Below, piece by piece: positions 3,872 through 16,490 of a stretch of DNA of 32,667 nt (position 1 is the first letter of the stretch; every line of letters begins with the position of its first letter). The translations under genes were made by a program, and so were the position numbers. Under the pieces are notes generated by a model that was given only the letters and a program-made list of their open reading frames with translations, was not told the origin of the DNA and did no database searches. Origin of the DNA: Desulfobacterales bacterium (GTDB lineage: Bacteria; Desulfobacterota; Desulfobulbia; Desulfobulbales; VMSU01); assembly GCA_011330685.1 (NCBI GenBank), contig DRPV01000155.1, forward strand, positions 1-32,667, read 5' to 3'.

Positions 3872-4402
3872 ACGCAGACCGGCCGTCCTGGCGGCACTTA
3901 AATTCACCTGATAACGGATACGGCCCTCCATTTTCACCAACTCAATCATACCGCCCGCGCTTAGAAAGTGCCTAACATCAGCCACCGTCAAAATAGGCCG
4001 CCCCTTGAGCCGCGCGACAATCATCTTGAAATTATCGGCCTGAGAGCGGCCAATAAAAAGAATATGACAAGCCGAGAAATCAAGATCAGGCCGATAAGAG
4101 TTATAAAGGATTACCTTGATAGTCGTTCTTCCTCTCTGCCGCAGACGCCTCGCCAATTCAGTAAGACTGCGGCCCAGCTCCTGGTCGCCGAGAACACCAA
4201 TCACCTTTACGACCTTTTCTTCTTTCTCTTCCTGATCCGGCCAGGTGACAAAATGTAAAAAGTTATAGAGATAGACGGCCTTGACCTGAACCTGTTTAAT
4301 CACCGGTTCTCCGCCGCCGGCAGCCGCCGATGAAACAACCATAGAGGAGGCAATCAGAGCCAGGATAACAAGCGCCATCCTTAAATGAAGCCTCATCTTC
4401 AT
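3809..4402 (-). CDS. YfiR family periplasmic regulator (DUF4154)
   Basis: 197 residues: a signal peptide (MKMRLHLRMALVILALIASS, ending near AAAGG) then the YfiR domain, seen in VKAVYLYNFLHFVTWPD, IGVLGDQELG, HILFIGRSQ, ILTVADVRHFLSAGGMIELV and INLSAARTAGLRLSSQLLE-like segments. In Pseudomonas, YfiR is a periplasmic inhibitor of the inner-membrane cyclase YfiN. Here its ATG overlaps the stop of a histidine kinase by four bases (ATGA), so the two are translationally coupled and it probably acts on that kinase's sensor domain. That function is inference from context. The 3' end overlaps the PEP-CTERM gene tail to tail. Confidence 0.88.
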   Translation of the reverse strand: MKMRLHLRMALVILALIASSMVVSSAAAGGGEPVIKQVQVKAVYLYNFLHFVTWPDQEEKEEKVVKVIGVLGDQELGRSLTELARRLRQRGRTTIKVILYNSYRPDLDFSACHILFIGRSQADNFKMIVARLKGRPILTVADVRHFLSAGGMIELVKMEGRIRYQVNLSAARTAGLRLSSQLLESALTVIKPMPKED

Positions 4403-5943
4403 TCCATACCCCCCACACCGCCGTCTTCCTCATCAGCCTTTTTACACGGCTCCACCGGCAGGATAATGACGATCTCTGTCCCACGGCCCGGTGCCGAGTG
4501 TACTTCAATCTTACCATGATGGTTTTTAACAATATTATAGGTAATTGACAGACCGAGTCCGGTACCCTGGCCCACGGGCTTAGTACTGAAAAAGGGGTCA
4601 AAGATGTATTCTAAGGCCTCGGGTTCAATTCCGCTCCCGTTATCCTGAAAGCTGATATACGCTTTGCCCCCGGCCGGCCAGGTCTTGAGCCGGATGGTTC
4701 CCCGTTTTTCAATGGCCTGGATGGCGTTAAGGAGTATATTCATATAGGCTTGGCCCATATGATCCCGCTGACAATAAACAACAGGCAGATCCGGATCGAA
4801 ATCCCGGATAATCTCCGCCTTATCCCGGCACTCGTAACGAAGAAGATTGATGATATTATTAAGCTCGGCGTGGATATCAACCGGAACTAATTGACCATGA
4901 CTGGATCTGGAAAAGGCGTTAAGATCCTGGACAATTTTCTTTGTTCTTCTAACTCCCTCCTCGGCATTGGCCAATAATGAGACAATATCAAGATGCATCT
5001 GCCAGGCTGGGGAGGCCTTATGATTTTCCGCCATCTCCACGACCAGTTCATTGGTCATCCGCTTAATATTGGGTAAGGCACCGGCAATGAAACTTATATT
5101 ATTATTAATATCGTGGGCAACTCCAGCCACCAGCTGACCCAGGGCCGCCATTTTCTCGGATTGCACCAGCTGGGCCTGACTCTTCCTGAGATCATCCATG
5201 GCGTTCTGCAGCTCCTCGGTACGAGCCGCTACCCGGCCTTCCAGGGTGCGGTTGTATTCCTCCAGGCGCTCATGGGAATCACGCAGCCGTTTATTCATCT
5301 CCACAAAGGCGCTACAGAGAACCCCCATCTCATCCCGCCCCCGCATAGAGGAACATTTTTTAAACTGAAAGTCTCCGGCAGCAATCCGTTTAACCATCTC
5401 AGTTAAAGACAATAATGGTTTCGAAACAACATTACGCAGAATGGCCGAAAGCCAAAAGGCCGAGAACAAAGAGCCAACGCCCACCAGCAGCAGAATAAGT
5501 AATATCTGCCTCCGCCCTCTGGCCATATCACGCATGTCATCCTCAATAACGATACGACCGACATAGGTGCCGTCATCAAGGATAATCTTCCGGGAAAATG
5601 AACAAATTTCTTTTACTGAAGTACCTTTAAGCGCCGACGCCTTATAACTGGCAAAAACATGCCCCTGCTTATCGTAGAGAATCACCTGCCGAACTGATTT
5701 ACGGCCCTTCAGGGTGGCGAGCACAACACCGGCATCCTCCGGAACATCAAACATAAGAGCGGCCTTGCAGTTGGAGCCGACAATAAGAGCCAGATTGTTC
5801 ATGTCCCTTTTATAGACCTTCTGAAAATGATTAACCACCAGGCCGTAAAAGGCCAGGCAGGCAACCAGCACCGTCAGGCTGCTGGTAAGCATCAGAATCA
5901 GGGTTAGTTTATGTTTAATACTTACGTCACGCCAGAACATCAT
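4399..5943 (-). CDS. Membrane histidine kinase with CHASE8-like periplasmic sensor and HAMP
   Basis: 514 residues. TM1 is at 14-36. A periplasmic domain at about 38-140 (LALIVGSNCKAALMFDVPEDA..YDKQGHVFASY) resembles CHASE8, the sensor fold of YfiN/TpbB. TM2 is near 146-168, a HAMP domain at about 170-222 and a coiled coil at about 223-265. In HisKA the phospho-acceptor is His277 (GVAHDINN). HATPase_c has the N-box NILLNA, then DNGSGI and GQGTGLGLS. All catalytic motifs are present. No response regulator is adjacent, so the partner is unknown. It lies nine bases after the TonB receptor and overlaps the yfiR-like gene, forming one operon. An envelope or ligand signal sensed with YfiR is likely but unproven. 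Confidence 0.92.
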   Translation of the reverse strand: MMFWRDVSIKHKLTLILMLTSSLTVLVACLAFYGLVVNHFQKVYKRDMNNLALIVGSNCKAALMFDVPEDAGVVLATLKGRKSVRQVILYDKQGHVFASYKASALKGTSVKEICSFSRKIILDDGTYVGRIVIEDDMRDMARGRRQILLILLLVGVGSLFSAFWLSAILRNVVSKPLLSLTEMVKRIAAGDFQFKKCSSMRGRDEMGVLCSAFVEMNKRLRDSHERLEEYNRTLEGRVAARTEELQNAMDDLRKSQAQLVQSEKMAALGQLVAGVAHDINNNISFIAGALPNIKRMTNELVVEMAENHKASPAWQMHLDIVSLLANAEEGVRRTKKIVQDLNAFSRSSHGQLVPVDIHAELNNIINLLRYECRDKAEIIRDFDPDLPVVYCQRDHMGQAYMNILLNAIQAIEKRGTIRLKTWPAGGKAYISFQDNGSGIEPEALEYIFDPFFSTKPVGQGTGLGLSITYNIVKNHHGKIEVHSAPGRGTEIVIILPVEPCKKADEEDGGVGGME

Positions 5944-5952
5944 GCGGCCATG

Positions 5953-8304
5953 TCAATAGTCATAAGAGAGGGACAGATAATATTGCGGATTCTCAGCCCT
6001 GGGTGAATCAAGAGGGCGGGTACCGTTAAAGTAGGCAGGATGTTGATTATAATTTTTATGCAGCAGTTCTTTGGCACTGAACGACAGCCTGAGATGTTTA
6101 TTAAACTGATACCAGAGGTTGGCATCCATCACAAAAGACCATTTATCGAAAAGAGCGGCCACTGCCGGATCGGTCACCTTTGCCTTTTCATAGCGGGGCG
6201 ACTCCAGGAGCCCGTTGGCTCCGGCAAAAAGACCGGGTAGAACTTCATAGCTGAGATACAGCTTAAACATATGGACAGGGTAACGAGTCCAGGTATCATC
6301 CCGGTTGGCCACCCGGATAGAGTCTTCAAAGGAGTTAAGCGGTTTGGAGTAGCTATACGAAAGAGAGCCGGAAAGAGGGCCCTCCGGCGGTCGGTAATTC
6401 AGGCTTAATTCACCGCCGACGGCCGTAATTATCTTATGACTGTTACCATAAGTAAAACCGCTGTCCACCCAGCCCTGAGTGTCTTTATAGCGGTTATAAA
6501 ACAGGGCGCTGGTAATATTGACGGACTTCACAAGTCCGTTAATATCATAATTAAACTCATAACTCTTGGAGGTCTCGGGTTTAAGTTTAATATTAGTGCC
6601 GTTGGCCTTATTCTGATGCGCCACCCATTTCAGCGGCCAGTAATCGGCAAAGCGAAAGCCCTCCTGATATGAGAGCCTCACCGTCTGCCGCCCGCTTATC
6701 TGATAGGCCAGAGCCAGGCGCTTGGTATAAGCCTCCGCGTCATCAGGGGGCGGATATGGGCCGTCGTTAAAGGGGGGAACCGCCGATATATCATGGTTAT
6801 AATAGGTCTTATCATAGCGCAGACCACCCAGAAGGGTGAATTTACCAATCTGAGCCTGATCCTCGCCAAAGGCACTAAACGTATGCCATTGCCAGGGATA
6901 GGTATAGAATTTAAAATATTTGGCCTCTACCCCCCAGGCAATCTTCTGGTTACGCAGGCCGGTGTAATTATTGATCAGGGTAAGGCCCGTATGCAGTTCA
7001 TCACCATAGGCATAATAATCCTCATTGCACTTCATGGCCGGACAGTCATTACCATCGGTGGGGGGCAGGCTGATATGAAGCCTCCGCACCTCATCAAGTA
7101 AGAAATCGCTGAATACCGAGTGTGATTTAAGACGATGATAGTAGGGGATCAGGGTAAGGTTATTATGCTCGTTAAGTCGCAGCTTTATCTCTGGAGAGAT
7201 AAGAAGATTCTCAGACTCCTGCACATAAAATGGTGAATAACGGCCGCCCCTGGCCTCGGCAGTCGCCTTGACTTCCTCCCGCCAGTCGGCACTGCTGGTC
7301 AGATACTCGCCAAGCACCGGGCCAACATTGGAGGTATGACTCAGCAGCCCCTTCAGGTCGACCCGCAGGCGGTCATCAGGCCGGCCGAACTGGGCCCGGA
7401 AGGCAAATTTATAGTTGCCATCGGTCTTACCGACCCGGACATTATCAAGAAAGGTGGCGGAAGGCGTGCCGTTCACCCCGTTTAACTTAGACCATTGAGA
7501 AATGGGCAGGGTGTAATGCGGCCGCACACCATCATTTTTGCTGTAACCACCATAGAGAAAATAATTTAACCGCTCGTTGAGCACTTGGCCATAACTACCC
7601 TCGACCTGCCGAAAATCACCGCTGCCCACCATGGTATAGACCCGCAGCCCTTCCCGGCTCTTCCCCGTGGCGCTGATCAGATTTATGGAACCGTTAATAG
7701 CCCCTGAACCATAGCGCAGAGTGCCGGGGCCGGTGGAGATTTCCACCCTCTCAATGTCACCCAACAGGGTGGTGGAAAGATCAGAACCGTTTATTCCCAC
7801 GATTTGCCGATTATTGATATTGACGTTATCGCGCAGCATGATGGTCTTCGAATTGTTATCAATGAGCATGCCCCGAACTCCAATGATGGTACCCTGATTA
7901 CCATGAGTAGCGGTGGACATCCCCGGTACCTGGCGGTCGATATATTCGGCGATGGAACGAATCCCCATCCGCCGCAGCTGCTCGATGTCAACCACATAAT
8001 GACTACCGGGCGCCTCACTGCGTGACATGGGGAAAAGGCCTGAAGATTGAATGGGAAGCCGAGCCAGTTCAGCCATGGAAAGACCAAGAAGATAATCATA
8101 CACCCGGTCATCACCCTGAGGAGCGGCAAGCGGAGCTGGTGTCGATGACGGCTGCCGACTTGTTTGCGCCGCACTGCCGCCTGCTGAAGCCCCAAGCAGC
8201 AGCAAGATAAAAAATCCGGCAGCAATTATTTTCATCCCCATCAGAGGAAGGAGCTGGCATTTTCCACACCAATTGTGCTGCACCGACAAACTTCGGGAAC
8301 GCAT
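5953..8304 (-). CDS. TonB-dependent outer-membrane receptor
   Basis: 783 residues. SD GGGGAG six bases upstream supports ATG 8304; the hydrophobic export signal begins only near residue 24, so the n-region is long. After it comes DYLLGLSMAELARLPIQS, the N-terminal segment common in receptors of this family. The plug domain spans about 85-215 (RSIAEYIDRQVPGM, IGVRGM, VERVEISTGPGTLRYGSGAINGSINLI). The 22-strand barrel fills the remainder, ending in an aromatic YYLSLSYDY. These proteins import siderophores, cobalamin, metals or other ligands using TonB energy. The ligand cannot be told from sequence. It is the first gene of an operon with the histidine kinase and YfiR, which suggests a receptor tied to signalling. 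No Fur box was recognised. Confidence 0.93.
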   Translation of the reverse strand: MRSRSLSVQHNWCGKCQLLPLMGMKIIAAGFFILLLLGASAGGSAAQTSRQPSSTPAPLAAPQGDDRVYDYLLGLSMAELARLPIQSSGLFPMSRSEAPGSHYVVDIEQLRRMGIRSIAEYIDRQVPGMSTATHGNQGTIIGVRGMLIDNNSKTIMLRDNVNINNRQIVGINGSDLSTTLLGDIERVEISTGPGTLRYGSGAINGSINLISATGKSREGLRVYTMVGSGDFRQVEGSYGQVLNERLNYFLYGGYSKNDGVRPHYTLPISQWSKLNGVNGTPSATFLDNVRVGKTDGNYKFAFRAQFGRPDDRLRVDLKGLLSHTSNVGPVLGEYLTSSADWREEVKATAEARGGRYSPFYVQESENLLISPEIKLRLNEHNNLTLIPYYHRLKSHSVFSDFLLDEVRRLHISLPPTDGNDCPAMKCNEDYYAYGDELHTGLTLINNYTGLRNQKIAWGVEAKYFKFYTYPWQWHTFSAFGEDQAQIGKFTLLGGLRYDKTYYNHDISAVPPFNDGPYPPPDDAEAYTKRLALAYQISGRQTVRLSYQEGFRFADYWPLKWVAHQNKANGTNIKLKPETSKSYEFNYDINGLVKSVNITSALFYNRYKDTQGWVDSGFTYGNSHKIITAVGGELSLNYRPPEGPLSGSLSYSYSKPLNSFEDSIRVANRDDTWTRYPVHMFKLYLSYEVLPGLFAGANGLLESPRYEKAKVTDPAVAALFDKWSFVMDANLWYQFNKHLRLSFSAKELLHKNYNQHPAYFNGTRPLDSPRAENPQYYLSLSYDY

Positions 8305-9787: not shown

Positions 9788-12700
9788 CTATTTAAGAAAA
9801 TCCACCAGACTGAGCTGCATGGTCTTACTGGCGGCGGCCAACGCGGCCTGGTAGGCCGTCTCCTTGGTCTTTAAATCCATCACCGCCTTAATCATATCCG
9901 TATCCTGCACCTCGGAGAGATTACCCTTGGTGGAGACCTCCATATCCGTATAAATCTGGGTCTGTATATTTATCCGATTGGCCCGCGCCCCGAAGTTAGA
10001 AATCTGCTCCGTTAATTTACTCATCAGGCTGTCTATATTATCCATATCCTGGCCAATGGCTTGCTGCTGCATAAATTCCGCCGCCACACCAGTCGCTTTA
10101 AGAAAGTTACTGCTGTCATCACTTAAGGCGACGGTATATCGATCAGGGTCATCGGAACTTATCACCAATTTACCGTCGGAATTCCAACTCGCCGAGACAT
10201 GGGGAATACCGTCAATACGGTTAGTGACGCTGTCTAAGGAATCAGTCGCGGGATCAACATTAATGGTCAAAGGTACCGAACGGGACGGATAATAATCATG
10301 GTCGGTAACCGTCACCGTAAAAGTCCCCTCGCTGAACAAATCCTCCGAGGGCAGTTGAGACGCCGGCTCCAGACCGGTGGCCTTACTGTTAAGCAGCTGC
10401 GAGGTAGAGGCCGCGGCATGAATACCGGTTACCGTGGTAAAATTCTTACCTTCCAGGGAATCTTCCAGGCCTTTTAAGGTCGTAAAAATAGTGGTATCTA
10501 CAATGCCGGTTTTACCGTTATCTCCCACTAACATCGTGTTGGTCTTACCAATCTTAATATTCAGACTGCCAATCCGATCACCGGCATAACGCACGCTGCC
10601 TTCCCGGTCGTGGATACTGAAGACATCAATGCGGCCATCGCCTTTGGTATCACCAGGTTCACCGCTTACCGAGGTACCGCCGGCCATCCCCAGAGCGCCC
10701 AAACCAGGTTCAGTTGAATTAACCGTTGGCTCAACCGTCTCCAAAATAAATTTACGGGCAGAGCGTAATTGCAGAGTTCCTGAATATACCCGGTCTCTAT
10801 GCTCAACACCACCATTTAACCGGGTGATATCCTCACCATGCACCGAGGTCTGGATATGGATATTACGGCCGTCAACGGCGGTAAGCTGCAGGCTGCCGTC
10901 CGCGCCCCGTGTACCCTTAACCCCGGTGGCGGCGGTCTGAGCGTTAATGGCCGTCAGGAGGGTGTTGGTAGAATCCTTGCCGCTCACCGTAGTGGGGATG
11001 GTGAATATATCTACCCCGTTGATTCGCAAATCACCAGTATCGAGAAAACGCGGCGTTGAGCCATAATCTATCTGCCCGTCACTACTCGGAGAAGTGAGTC
11101 CCAATTCCTGAATAATCGTATCGGCAGGAGGCGAAGTGGTGGGGCTGGTAATAGTAAAAGCGGCATTTGAAGCCAGTGATATCTCGCCGGTATTATGGGA
11201 ATTATCTACCGCCTGATCGACATTACTGAGGCCGGAGAGAGTCGTTTCTCCGGCGGATAAACCAGCCAAGACGATATTACTTTCGTCACCACTCTCCGTA
11301 TTGCTCAGAACCACGCTGTTTAGCGCCCCACCATTGGCCCCGCTGCCGATACTAGCTGTAACTCCGGTCTGGGCAGTCAGCTTGTTAATGGCCGAGGCAA
11401 TATCCGAGGCAGTGGCGGCCGGGCTGACCCCGCCGGTGGTAAGCGCCACGGAAACCCCGTTCAGGGTAAAATCCAGGGCCTCGGGGCCGGGGGCGGTGGC
11501 CGCCGATCCGGCGTAAAGAGTAGTAAGCAACCCCTTGACCCCGGTGGTATTGCTGATGGCATTAATTTCAGTTCCGGCATTAAAGGCCTTGGCCATATTA
11601 AGGCCGTTGGTCACTGCCCCGCTGTTGATAGCGTTATTAAGCACCGTGCCGTTAATCGCCAGATCATTGGCATTAATGGTGTTATTGGTTACCGTGCCGG
11701 TGAGCAGGGTCTTTTCCGTCCCGCTGTTCACCGCCCCATTGGCCGCGACATGGGCCGGATCAACCTTGGCCGTGACCCCGGTCTGGGTTGTCAGCGAATT
11801 AATAGCCGCCGCCTTGGCCGCCGCCGAAGAGGCGGCGTAAACATCGGAGAGGCCATCAGCGGTCGTGGCCGGCACCAGTGTCCCATTAACCCGCAAATCA
11901 CCGCTGGTCAGGGGATAGCCATAAACCAGCTTTCCGTCACCAGCCGCGTCATAATCACCCTTACCACCGCCGTCCAGGCCCAGTTGCTTGAGGATGCTGT
12001 CGTCAGGAGGATCGGGGCTGGTTGTCATACTGAAGGCACTGTCACCGGACAGGGTTATCTGGCCGGTATTATGAGTAGCATCGGCCGCTTGCGAACCATT
12101 AGTTAGATTAATGGCGCTTCCGGTAGTACCGGCGCTGAAATTAGCAATGCTGACGGCATTTTCATCCCCGGCCTCGGCATTTTTCAGAATCAGAACATTA
12201 GCAGCCGCACCATTGGTGCCGTCACCGACCGCGGCTGTCACCCCGCTTACGTCCTTTTCGGCCTCAACGGCGCTGACAATGGCATTATTGATGGCCGCGG
12301 CGGTTGTACCGTTAGTCACGGTTACCGAAATATGATGATTATTAAGATCAAAGGAGATCGTACCATCGGCAGTGGCATCGGTGGTAGCGGCAGTGGCCGT
12401 AACTAAAGTGGTTAATTTGGAGCTCATAGTTGTGCCGCCAAAGATATTACCGTCAATGGCGGTTTTTAAATTAGCGGCCCCCTGCATATTGAGTCCCGAA
12501 CTACCAGCCGGAGTCAGGGTTACCGCCCCCACGTCCGTACCGTTTATCAGCAGATCATTGGCCGCCAGATCAACAGGGGCGGTATTAAGCACCGTAGAGG
12601 TCAAGCCGCTCATATCATGGGCGTTGCCGTTAATCCAATGACCATCGCCCTTATCCTTGATAAAGGGGGCCGGTTCCAGAGCGGTATAACCGTTAGTACG

Positions 12701-13114
12701 CTCACCGCCAAAAATGAATTTACCATTTTCCTGAGTATTGGCAAGCTGCACCGCCTGTTGAAAGAGGTTCTTGACTTCAGCGGCCAGGGCCTTCCGGTTA
12801 TCGACGCTCAAAGCCGGGTCAACGGCCTGAATGGCGAGGGTCTTGGCCCGCAGAGCGAGAGACTTCATCTGAGTCATGGCGGTCTCCGAGGCCCCGATAA
12901 TATTACCGCCACTGGTAATATTGCCCTTAAACTGTTTCAACTCCGCCACGGTAGTTCGAAAACGCAGGGCACTGACCAGATTAACCGGGTTGTCCGAAAG
13001 CCGGGACAACTGGCTGCCGGATGATATCTGCTCATTGATATCAGCCATACTGGTGGTAATCCGATCAAGATTGTTCTGGATTCCGGTATATATGGTATTT
13101 AATGTGGTTCTCAT
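9788..13114 (-). CDS. flgL: Flagellar hook-filament junction protein FlgL (HAP3), enlarged
   Basis: 1108 residues against roughly 300 in E. coli. The first 140 or so (TLNTIYTGIQNNLDRITTSMADINEQISSG, FIFGGERTNGY) and the last 100 (EQISNFGARANRINIQTQ, TDMIKAVMDLKTKETAYQAALAAASKTMQLSLVDFL) are the flagellin-like coiled-coil ends that join hook and filament. Between them are two tandem units of about 250 residues starting near 187 (DLLINGTDV) and 484 (DLAINGTVL), each with NxxVLxN.ExGDE, a HNTG motif and an ELGL/QLGL end. They are probably surface-exposed domains related to flagellin hook-IN segments. A calcium-like DTKGDGRIDVFS motif lies near 823. It follows flgK by seven bases. A single open frame shows it is intact. 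Confidence 0.93.
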   Translation of the reverse strand: MRTTLNTIYTGIQNNLDRITTSMADINEQISSGSQLSRLSDNPVNLVSALRFRTTVAELKQFKGNITSGGNIIGASETAMTQMKSLALRAKTLAIQAVDPALSVDNRKALAAEVKNLFQQAVQLANTQENGKFIFGGERTNGYTALEPAPFIKDKGDGHWINGNAHDMSGLTSTVLNTAPVDLAANDLLINGTDVGAVTLTPAGSSGLNMQGAANLKTAIDGNIFGGTTMSSKLTTLVTATAATTDATADGTISFDLNNHHISVTVTNGTTAAAINNAIVSAVEAEKDVSGVTAAVGDGTNGAAANVLILKNAEAGDENAVSIANFSAGTTGSAINLTNGSQAADATHNTGQITLSGDSAFSMTTSPDPPDDSILKQLGLDGGGKGDYDAAGDGKLVYGYPLTSGDLRVNGTLVPATTADGLSDVYAASSAAAKAAAINSLTTQTGVTAKVDPAHVAANGAVNSGTEKTLLTGTVTNNTINANDLAINGTVLNNAINSGAVTNGLNMAKAFNAGTEINAISNTTGVKGLLTTLYAGSAATAPGPEALDFTLNGVSVALTTGGVSPAATASDIASAINKLTAQTGVTASIGSGANGGALNSVVLSNTESGDESNIVLAGLSAGETTLSGLSNVDQAVDNSHNTGEISLASNAAFTITSPTTSPPADTIIQELGLTSPSSDGQIDYGSTPRFLDTGDLRINGVDIFTIPTTVSGKDSTNTLLTAINAQTAATGVKGTRGADGSLQLTAVDGRNIHIQTSVHGEDITRLNGGVEHRDRVYSGTLQLRSARKFILETVEPTVNSTEPGLGALGMAGGTSVSGEPGDTKGDGRIDVFSIHDREGSVRYAGDRIGSLNIKIGKTNTMLVGDNGKTGIVDTTIFTTLKGLEDSLEGKNFTTVTGIHAAASTSQLLNSKATGLEPASQLPSEDLFSEGTFTVTVTDHDYYPSRSVPLTINVDPATDSLDSVTNRIDGIPHVSASWNSDGKLVISSDDPDRYTVALSDDSSNFLKATGVAAEFMQQQAIGQDMDNIDSLMSKLTEQISNFGARANRINIQTQIYTDMEVSTKGNLSEVQDTDMIKAVMDLKTKETAYQAALAAASKTMQLSLVDFLK

Positions 13115-13121
13115 TTTATTC

Positions 13122-15974
13122 CTACCTGCCCACCGTACTCAATAGGGTCTGCAGCATCTCGTCCGAAACCGTAATAAGCTTGGCCGCCGCGGTATAGGCA
13201 TGCTGAAATTTCATCAAATTAGCCATTTCCTCATCAAGAGAGACTCCGGACGTTGAATCCCGAATGGCCTCTAATTGAGTATTTACCTGCTTGTTATAGG
13301 TTAAATCGGTATTTATGCTCTTACTCTTGAGCCCTATTTCAGCAATAAGAGAATTATAGAAACCATCTAAGGTGTCAGTTGTGCCGCCACTGAAGCTAAC
13401 CTCTTCATTTCTTTGAATATTTGAGACCAGCAAAGCGTTGGAGTTGTCACCTCTGAATATTTCGCCATATTTATTAATCGTCCCGGCGGCGAGATTATTC
13501 AGCTTATCAGAGACCGTGGAATTAATGCCGATGGTGCCGGCAGAGTGACCGGAAAATATAGTATTCAGGCCAATGGCCGCCAGAAAATTCGAGTCGTCGC
13601 CGCCAAAGGCGAATTGATGACTGGCATCGGGGGTCAGAATCAGCTTATTGTCGCTCACCGTGGCCTCCACCCAGGGGGTTGTCACCGTCGGGTCATTAAT
13701 GGCGTTAACGATTGATTTGTTAATAACATCGGCCACATCCTGTAAATTATAGGCCCGTTCCAGGGGGATGGATACCGGCTGAGCCAGAGCGAGAGAACCG
13801 TCCTTATTGTAGAGCCACATCTTAAAACTCTTGCCATCGGTACTCAGGGTATCGGCATAATCCAGCCCCATGAGAGAGTTGGCCACGCCGTTATCAGCAA
13901 AGGTATATGATAATTTACCATCATTGGCCGTCTCGTCGGCCTTGGCCACCCCAAGCTTGGTAAACTTTGTAAAGCCGAGATTACCGCTCCCTGCCCCGCT
14001 GATATTATCCACCCTTATATCCGAGGTCTCACTGGAAAAGACAACGGCATTCAATATTCCACCGTTAGTGCCGTTTCCCACCTTAGCGGTAACTCCGCTC
14101 TTGGCGCTGACCAGATTTATCGCATCGACTATCAACTGGGCGTTCTGGGCCGCGGTATCGGCAGATAAAAGATTAACCGAAACCGCATGACCGTTAACGG
14201 TAAAGGAAACGGGAGAATTCGCTCCCGGAACAGTCACAGCATTATCGCTGTAATGAACCGTCCCGGCCCAGCCCAGCTCGGCCATAATGGTGTCATCAGC
14301 CCCGCCGTCAATACTGATGGGCCCCGAGCCGGTGAAGACGGAAAGAGCGCCGGTATTATGCGCGGCATCGGCCGTATAGGTTCCATCGGTAAGGCCGGCC
14401 TTGGCCTCCACCGGATCCGTTTGATCAAGACCGGCAAGGACAATCTGCGATTCATCGCCCTTATTTGTATTCCGCAGAACAAGGGCGTTAACAGCCCCGC
14501 CGTTCAAGCCATTCCCCACCAACGCCTCAATGGTAATCTTGGGCTGATTGGTCTGAGGCGGGGTGAGTCCCACATTATCATTATAGTCACTGATCGCCTG
14601 ATTAACGGCATCCTTTAAATGAGAGGCCAAAAGCGCCGGATCGGTGTCATCCGGGGCACCGGCGGCATCAACCGTATAATTTACCGCGATACCGTTTACC
14701 GTAAAGCTGATAGTCTGGCCGTTATCTGCGGCTGTCATGGGGGTCACGGCATCGCCGGCCACCTGAGTCGTCATTTTAGCGATAACCCCGGCCCCGGCGT
14801 TATTGATAGCCACTGCGGCGTTATAGGTCTTACCCATGGCCTGGCCATAGACCACGGAACTACCGTCAATCCGGCCAATATCCCGGCCGTTAATCTGCAG
14901 ACTGCCGGCAATAATCGTCTCGGCGGCAGTATCAACATCCACCGTGGTATGCAGCAGCGCGGCATCATGGGCCGCTTCAGAACTGACAAGACGATCAGAG
15001 AAAGGCACCATTCCCACGCCCTGACTGTGCTGCTGATTAACCTCCCTGATCAGAGAATTGGCAAGAGAGTTCAAACGGCCGAGATAATTATCAGGATTAC
15101 CCTCAACCAGCTGATTATTCATCCCGACCAGTCCCCCAAGCTTGGCACCCAGAGCCTCACCGGAGGGGATAACCGCCATGGTCTGGGCACCGGTGGCGGA
15201 GGTCTGCACCCAATGGAGCTTGTTATCCGACCAATCCAGGCTCCAGGACTCGTTATTATTGACCAGAGAATGACCATCACCAAGCATTATGGTATAGGCC
15301 CCGTTGGCAGATTCAAAATAATTGACATCCACGTAGCCGGAGAGTTTTTTTAACAAATCATCCCTGGTATCACGCAGATCATTCTGCTGCTGGCGAGTGG
15401 TCTCGGAAGCGGAAATCTTCACGTTAATATTCGCTAATTGTTTAGTCAGACTGTTTACGGCACTGATTGTGGACTTCAGGTTCTCGCCTATATTGAGTTT
15501 GACCTGGTTGATATCCGCGGTCATGGACTGAAACTTATCATTTAAAATTTCCGCCTTCTGCACCACAGTCTGGCGGGCGGAAGACAATTCAGGGTTATTG
15601 CTTAAGGCCTGCCAGGCGGCCCAAAACTGGCTCATCAAATCATTTACCGCCAGACCGGGAGCCTCATTAAAGGTGGTTCCCACTACCTTCATTATCTGTT
15701 GCTGGGCCTGCAGATTATTGATGGTGGAATTCTGGTCCATGAGCCGTTTCACCATAAACCGATCATACTGCCGCACCACCGATTCACTGCGCACCCCGTT
15801 ACCGAAAAATCCTGCCCGGTCGGGAGTGGCCACCGGAGTGGTCAAATCCAGTATCTGACGGGTATAGCCCGGATCATCAACATTGGCGATGTTATGCCCC
15901 GCCACATTGATTGAGGCCTGATGAGTAAGCAGGGCCTCCTTAGCTATATTTAATACCGACGCGATACTTGGCAT
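13122..15974 (-). CDS. flgK: Flagellar hook-associated protein FlgK (HAP1), enlarged
   Basis: 950 residues against about 550 in E. coli. The N-terminus has the axial-protein signature (ALLTHQASINVAGHNIANVDDPGYTRQ), and the C-terminal VSLDEEMANLMKFQHAYTAAAKLITVSDEMLQTLL forms the D0 helix. Residues about 355-660 carry inserts of the same type as in FlgL: NGGAVNALVLRNTNKGDESQIVLAGL, HNTG, MAELGW, then another FTVNGHAVSV..AKSGVTAKVGNGTNGGILNAVVF unit. FlgK caps the hook and receives FlgL, so shared insert domains may contact or decorate the same junction surface (inference). It starts four bases after the flgN stop, in one operon. Confidence 0.95.
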   Translation of the reverse strand: MPSIASVLNIAKEALLTHQASINVAGHNIANVDDPGYTRQILDLTTPVATPDRAGFFGNGVRSESVVRQYDRFMVKRLMDQNSTINNLQAQQQIMKVVGTTFNEAPGLAVNDLMSQFWAAWQALSNNPELSSARQTVVQKAEILNDKFQSMTADINQVKLNIGENLKSTISAVNSLTKQLANINVKISASETTRQQQNDLRDTRDDLLKKLSGYVDVNYFESANGAYTIMLGDGHSLVNNNESWSLDWSDNKLHWVQTSATGAQTMAVIPSGEALGAKLGGLVGMNNQLVEGNPDNYLGRLNSLANSLIREVNQQHSQGVGMVPFSDRLVSSEAAHDAALLHTTVDVDTAAETIIAGSLQINGRDIGRIDGSSVVYGQAMGKTYNAAVAINNAGAGVIAKMTTQVAGDAVTPMTAADNGQTISFTVNGIAVNYTVDAAGAPDDTDPALLASHLKDAVNQAISDYNDNVGLTPPQTNQPKITIEALVGNGLNGGAVNALVLRNTNKGDESQIVLAGLDQTDPVEAKAGLTDGTYTADAAHNTGALSVFTGSGPISIDGGADDTIMAELGWAGTVHYSDNAVTVPGANSPVSFTVNGHAVSVNLLSADTAAQNAQLIVDAINLVSAKSGVTAKVGNGTNGGILNAVVFSSETSDIRVDNISGAGSGNLGFTKFTKLGVAKADETANDGKLSYTFADNGVANSLMGLDYADTLSTDGKSFKMWLYNKDGSLALAQPVSIPLERAYNLQDVADVINKSIVNAINDPTVTTPWVEATVSDNKLILTPDASHQFAFGGDDSNFLAAIGLNTIFSGHSAGTIGINSTVSDKLNNLAAGTINKYGEIFRGDNSNALLVSNIQRNEEVSFSGGTTDTLDGFYNSLIAEIGLKSKSINTDLTYNKQVNTQLEAIRDSTSGVSLDEEMANLMKFQHAYTAAAKLITVSDEMLQTLLSTVGR

Positions 15975-15977
15975 TCT

Positions 15978-16490
15978 TCAGACCTCTCGACTGATCAGGC
16001 TGGGCTGGACGCTGCTCCGCCTGAAGCCGGCAGCCCCGTAGGTAGCAGGGGCCGAAGCCTCGGGGCCGGTTAAAAGACTAACCGCCTCATTTAAGCAGGA
16101 CAAGGTATCCATGGTCGCCCGCCGGTTTATCAGGGTCTGGGTTTGAATCTCCAGGCGCAGCTCCCGCAGGTTTTGCCTGTACTGCTCGACAATCCGGCAC
16201 TCACTATCTGCCAGCAGGGGCAAAATGGCCGCCAAGGTCGAGACCGGCGGTTTATCATCCTCCGCGGCAACCGCCTCCTCAATAACACCTTTCAGGATAT
16301 CATCCACATATTGAATCCTAGTCAGTAAACTTTCCTTCTCCTTGGAAAGCCTGAAAAGTTCCTGAGCCGCCATCGCCTTCAAGGCCTTATTTTCATCCCG
16401 CAGAAGACTATTAAGTTCTTCCGAAAATCTGGCATTAGTCCGCAGCCCTTCAATGAGCTTTTCCACTATTTCCGGTTTTAGCTTTTTCAT
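15978..16490 (-). CDS. flgN: FlgN-type flagellar export chaperone
   Basis: 170 residues, predicted all-helical: charged heptad-like stretches LIEGLRTNARFSEELNSLLRDENKALKAMAAQELFRLSKEKESLLTRIQYVDDIL and a second helical half around ILPLLADSECRIVEQYRQNLRELRLEIQTQ. FlgN binds FlgK and FlgL in the cytosol and delivers them to the export gate. Placement directly before flgK, after flgJ, is typical. It overlaps flgJ by four bases (start inside the flgJ end), implying translational coupling. Sequence identity to known FlgN is low, so the call leans on length, helical pattern and position. Confidence 0.82.
   Translation of the reverse strand: MKKLKPEIVEKLIEGLRTNARFSEELNSLLRDENKALKAMAAQELFRLSKEKESLLTRIQYVDDILKGVIEEAVAAEDDKPPVSTLAAILPLLADSECRIVEQYRQNLRELRLEIQTQTLINRRATMDTLSCLNEAVSLLTGPEASAPATYGAAGFRRSSVQPSLISREV

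Follow-up and report, generated by a model that had tools for sequence, protein, structure and literature searches.

The window, a stretch of 32,667 nucleotides from a Desulfobacterales bacterium, carries the genes of both hook-filament junction proteins as intact open reading frames on the reverse strand: flgL at 9788..13114 (-), encoding 1108 residues, and flgK at 13122..15974 (-), encoding 950 residues. Whole FlgL scores 162.7 bits against TIGR02550 (FlgL; cut-off 127.2) and whole FlgK 333.4 bits against TIGR02492 (FlgK; cut-off 170.75). In FlgL, Pfam places Flagellin_N (PF00669) at residues 6-139 and Flagellin_C (PF00700) at residues 1024-1107, with the C-terminal helix region at 9794..10045 (-); the N-terminal D0/D1 part, residues 1-165 (12620..13114, -), is where all relatives align. 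In FlgK, Pfam recognizes only FlgK_D1 (PF22638, residues 100-322, E=1e-48) and the rod-type ends. The surroundings are those of an ordinary flagellar operon. Upstream are flgN, coding for the export chaperone of FlgK and FlgL (15978..16490, -; PF05130, E=5e-14), and the genes of a rod-binding protein, FlgI, FlgH and one rod protein, and downstream are those of CsrA and FliW. A TonB-dependent receptor and a CHASE8/HAMP histidine kinase adjoin the operon (window 4399-8304, -), and ORFs similar to those of this receptor and kinase are also neighbours at two other loci (L040 and L041).

A repeat unit common to FlgL and FlgK

The first-pass annotation had described both proteins as oversized and as carrying related inserts, and alignment of the proteins bears this out far beyond chance. 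FlgL 171-447 matches FlgL 471-732 in self-comparison with 38% identity (E=5e-34), FlgL 479-673 matches FlgK 353-569 with 35% identity (E=9e-21), and FlgL 165-382 matches FlgK 335-571 with E=1e-15; shuffled controls for these pairs (one within FlgL and two between FlgL and FlgK) gave z = 27, 19 and 15. Since whole FlgK and FlgL still match at E=1.4e-18 in composition-adjusted BLAST, the likeness does not come from low complexity, and this BLAST and the shuffles together ruled out a low-complexity origin of the shared motifs. At the DNA level the copies are old, being 60-75% alike over 36-57 nt only.

A profile HMM grown from both FlgL copies finds units of ∼210 residues. Each resembles two Flagellin_IN motifs (NG..., AIN, TGV.A) followed by NGG..N..VL.N...GDE, HNTG and D..L..LGLGGG. 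The first of them, FlgL inner unit 1, spans residues 185-398 (11921..12562, -) and is recognized by the unit HMM and the A1 alignment (E=6.4e-67). What follows had been taken as part of a plain tandem of two units of about 250 residues. The repeats are real, but the tandem arrangement and the unit size had to be revised, and indel and tree evidence replaced the tandem with a nested arrangement. On that evidence, FlgL has a third, 'terminal' unit, which is split into residues 404-466 (11717..11905, -) and residues 691-832 (10619..11044, -) by inner unit 2. The first half is colinear with the single unit of one-unit FlgLs, and the second half holds a full Flagellin_IN match. Between them is a nested insertion of 224 residues (FlgL 467-690; 11045..11716, -), within which the unit HMM, the alignment and the tree place inner unit 2 at residues 482-685 (11060..11671, -). 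Three observations argue for the nesting: one-unit relatives align to residues 398-466 and then directly to 690-1108; the 879-residue FlgL of a relative (G007) cleanly lacks exactly residues 467-690; and the joined halves of the terminal unit group in the tree with terminal units that are uninterrupted in relatives.

The related units ascribed to FlgK were also recovered, with a correction. There is one full unit, residues 356-579 (14238..14909, -; unit HMM E=4e-56, A1 alignment), plus an extra half-unit, residues 573-674 (13953..14258, -), which is a clean 102-residue indel absent from the FlgK of another relative (G009) and has a weak Flagellin_IN match at 14064-14150. Nearer the C-termini, FlgL has an IN-like tail domain at residues 926-1020 (10055..10339, -; IN match at 10148-10324), part of which (946-1019) is related to a tail domain of FlgK at residues 735-812 (13539..13772, -) with E=5e-5.

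Among the units, sequence homology to the outer domains of flagellins is shown for the terminal unit only. FlgL exceeds the gathering score of Flagellin_IN (PF07196; 39.6 vs 22.7 bits) through four stretches, the best of which is residues 695-746. Neither FlgK nor the window FlgL's inner unit 1 reaches this score, and the kinship of these two units to the others rests on the unit HMM and the A1 alignment; Pfam sees Flagellin_IN in just 13 of 35 units. Terminal-unit residues 694-772 align to H. pylori FlaA 249-329 (PDB: 9ygu, E=1.5e-5), and the second half of this unit aligns to C. jejuni FlaA 251-311 (PDB: 6x80, E=8e-4). The D2/D3 domains of H. pylori FlaA are Ig-like and surface-exposed (PMC12880188). 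What sets the inner units apart from the IN domains in the D2/D3 regions of H. pylori FlaA/FlaB and C. jejuni FlaA is an additional NGG..GDE segment, HNTG and the LGLGGG tail. The A1 profile, in which 32 of 35 rows are FlgL or FlgK units, found no PDB chain at E<=1. Structure prediction reached a pLDDT of 48 for a single unit (8 sequences) and 39 for full FlgL (4 sequences). Values of 70-80 were reached solely by the IN hairpin-helix-strand parts, and the best-predicted part of FlgL was the tail domain 926-1020 (66-78). Since the models are of low confidence, the fold search in the PDB, whose best Foldseek match was H. pylori FlaA at E=0.025, counts as weak support only. A further match of FlgL unit 1 (window 11885-12604, -), at E=2.6e-5, is to phrog_165, a tail-sheath family of PHROG, perhaps via a common IN-like motif.

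History and distribution of the units

Two unit trees, of 87 and 90 units, were used to trace how the units are related. A branch with 100/100 support parts terminal FlgL and flagellin units from the units of inner FlgL, FlgK and DUF4347 proteins. On these trees, a flagellin-type terminal FlgL unit is set apart from a derived 'inner' type, which is found in FlgL and once in FlgK. Inner units group mostly by position across genomes.

That flgK adjoins flgL and that their units are homologous would be expected if ongoing gene conversion held the units alike, a process that the first-pass annotation had offered next to domain copying. The similarity of FlgK units to inner FlgL units is indeed very slightly higher within a genome (0.254) than between genomes (0.246; permutation p=0.019). 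However, the similarity among FlgK units themselves is 0.456, far above either value, and the FlgK units fall into a single clade supported at 100/100 (34/34 rows in one tree and 30/30 in the other) and are monophyletic in all 200 bootstrap trees; moreover, flgK and flgL share no long tract of high DNA identity. Gene conversion is thus very improbable, and the trees and the similarity comparison rule it out as the main process. The single FlgK clade and its high internal similarity point instead to one old sharing event, after which the units descended vertically. The homology of the units and the trees uphold domain copying between FlgL and FlgK, and the trees place the sharing once, before the unit-bearing families of the order diverged. 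The simplest history would start from a flagellin-type outer domain in FlgL and the origin of the inner type, continue with a single old transfer from FlgL to FlgK or the reverse, and end with vertical descent during which FlgL units were gained and lost.

The relatives are members of the same order, and the named matches among them are Deltaproteobacteria MAGs and one Desulfobulbaceae MAG. When 247 phylum-wide genomes were searched with the unit profile at E<=1e-10, only this order and three further genomes (G085, G237 and G121) were hit; the match in G121 is weak, and those in G237 and G085 group in the tree with a flagellin unit of G017. Inner units are almost restricted to this order. Flagellin frames of 1158-1168 residues with five unit-like stretches were also seen (L082:190-3663, -; L157:2282-5785, -); these are near-alike in G017 and G237, and since the two genomes belong to different orders, transfer is suggested.

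Outside flagellar proteins, one inner-type unit each was found in two relatives, in giant surface proteins of the DUF4347 (LEPRxxFD) kind, of 1900 residues in G014 (L079:1829-7528, +; E=1.5e-55) and of 2474 residues in G004 (L059:1552-8973, -; E=1.9e-43). The inner-unit stretch of these proteins bears no Pfam name, and the second of them adjoins a TolC-like ORF of 744 residues. The inner unit therefore works outside flagella, which is what one would look for if the units were ligand-binding or adhesive modules at the junction, with copy number giving avidity rather than a match to filament diameter. We regard this reading as unlikely. A long DUF4347-type frame with the unit occurs in only 2/194 genomes of the order, and with two cases only, the idea that the unit is commonly housed in such proteins was rejected. 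In support of adhesion, neither a ligand nor a conserved aromatic patch or cation site was identified, and the 11 FlgL copies per flagellum (PMC12221982) would make a poor adhesion site. An adhesive role alone also does not predict the correlation with flagellin length described below.

Among relatives, FlgL length forms a ladder. Unit-free FlgLs have 312-346 residues (families f4, f11 and f12), and unit-bearing ones fall on rungs of 620-674, 870-905, 983-1108, 1161-1236 and 1355-1461 residues, their units being counted with the unit HMM. The best period is ∼234 residues, and none of 2000 uniform draws was as periodic, a comparison uncorrected for kinship. Sequence comparison has FlgL copy number changing repeatedly through whole-unit, in-frame insertions and losses, some of them nested, and so giving rise to the ladder. 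One genome (G024) has two separate flgK-flgL pairs (L066 and L067), each with a two-unit FlgL.

Such a ladder could arise without function, if the outer domains of axial proteins tolerate inserts and unit number merely drifts by repeat recombination. The units occupy sites of known hypervariability in outer domains, the indels between close relatives are clean and comprise whole units, and a single genus (g3) holds one-, two- and three-unit FlgLs, all of which would fit neutral accretion. On the other side, the position-specific orthology of the unit types is maintained from family to family, which suggests constraint, and FlgL length is correlated with flagellin length in several subsets of genomes. 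On balance, drift is an improbable account of the ladder.

FlgL length, flagellin length and the junction ring

FlgL length was compared with that of the longest flagellin frame, flagellin lengths being those of open frames in draft genomes. Across 29 unit-bearing genomes the two are correlated (rho 0.57). Phylogenetically independent contrasts gave r=0.53 (p=0.004), and their rank-based form was not significant (rho 0.29, p=0.15). In a further 11 genomes rho was 0.77 (p=0.006), falling to a non-significant 0.38 if the set retains two genomes in which all flagellins are short or truncated. The combined set gave rho 0.64 (n=40), and genus g33, whose eight genomes overlap the other sets, gave rho 0.80. 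The median flagellin has 530 residues where FlgL has one unit and 827 residues where it has several (p=5e-4). There are exceptions in both directions: three one-unit FlgLs are paired with flagellins of 825-843 residues, and some multi-unit FlgLs occur where only flagellins of 280 or 442 residues were found. FlgK length shows no correlation with flagellin length (rho 0.12). In the window genome itself, the large flagellin is cut at 635 residues by a contig end. On contig C244 of this genome, a flagellin-type protein (L001:742-2625, +), cut at 628 residues by the contig end, has long ASGSxLxxGS-type repeats, for which Pfam gives sub-threshold matches to left-handed beta-helix (hexapeptide) families.

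How the units may act is suggested by the order of the rings. FlgL forms an 11-subunit layer directly below flagellin, and FlgK forms the layer on the hook (PMC12221982). If the inner units are like the terminal unit, they should widen the FlgL ring, and FlgL and not FlgK should then scale with flagellin, as is observed. We argue, with slightly better than even confidence, that the inserts are copies of a surface module that enlarge the outer domains of the junction rings, and that the FlgL ring is thereby matched to a bulky filament. The module, a pair of Flagellin_IN motifs with a distinctive tail, would have been copied into the outward-facing domains of the rings, the terminal unit probably being its oldest context. 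Like flagellin D2/D3, the units would form Ig-like or beta-rich domains on the outer side of the D1 ring, so that every added unit could extend the FlgL ring radially. Under a thick filament of large flagellins, the diameter and lateral contacts of the FlgL ring would then fit those of the first flagellin layer, whereas FlgK, facing the hook, would not need to scale. Thick filaments are known to be built from giant flagellins (PMC6248924). The unusually large junction collar that the first-pass annotation had proposed is plausible on these grounds, since FlgL unit number varies stepwise across relatives and follows flagellin length.

Parts of this picture are already known from other bacteria. 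Enlarged FlgLs of 750-950 residues (PMC5691160) with a bulky D2 (PMC12221982) are found in the Campylobacter type, which resembles the present case in that bacteria whose flagellins are multi-domain have an FlgL with an oversized outer domain. The window FlgL falls far below the cut-offs of the models for that type, scoring 78 bits against 749 for PRK08412 and 54.4 against 878 for PRK14692 and matching at the termini only, and the unit profile matches no PDB chain. X. campestris FlgL and B. pseudomallei FlgK have a homologous D2 beta-sandwich (PMC6155364), which is a precedent for an outer domain common to FlgL and FlgK, but there it occurs in one copy each, with ∼80 C-alpha atoms superposed and without repeats. 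Giant flagellins with tandem domain extensions likewise show repeat-based growth of the surface domains of an axial protein; there the filament protein grows, whereas here the junction proteins do, and FlgL size is not treated as a variable in the passages of that work consulted here (PMC6248924). In the open-licence literature we found no prior account of a repeat unit common to FlgL and FlgK, of a nested FlgL copy-number ladder, of FlgL unit number being linked to flagellin size, or of the FlgL/FlgK unit in giant DUF4347 proteins.

That FlgL copy number tracks flagellin size suggests a joint that is enlarged one module at a time to suit how thick its propeller is. A broader and more tentative possibility is that the junction acts as a modular adaptor, whose FlgL ring is tuned to flagellin by whole or nested units, and that the same module was passed to giant surface proteins of the T1SS type, which would link flagellar and adhesin surface domains. 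The unit represents an uncharacterised surface domain that FlgK and FlgL have in common with some flagellins and with giant surface proteins. Pfam hardly recognizes it, and by sequence it is missing from the PDB. As FlgL size changes in fixed steps while its polymer neighbour flagellin changes too, these bacteria provide a natural series. With it, the way in which junction proteins fit a conserved hook to filaments that differ greatly in thickness can be tested directly within one genus.
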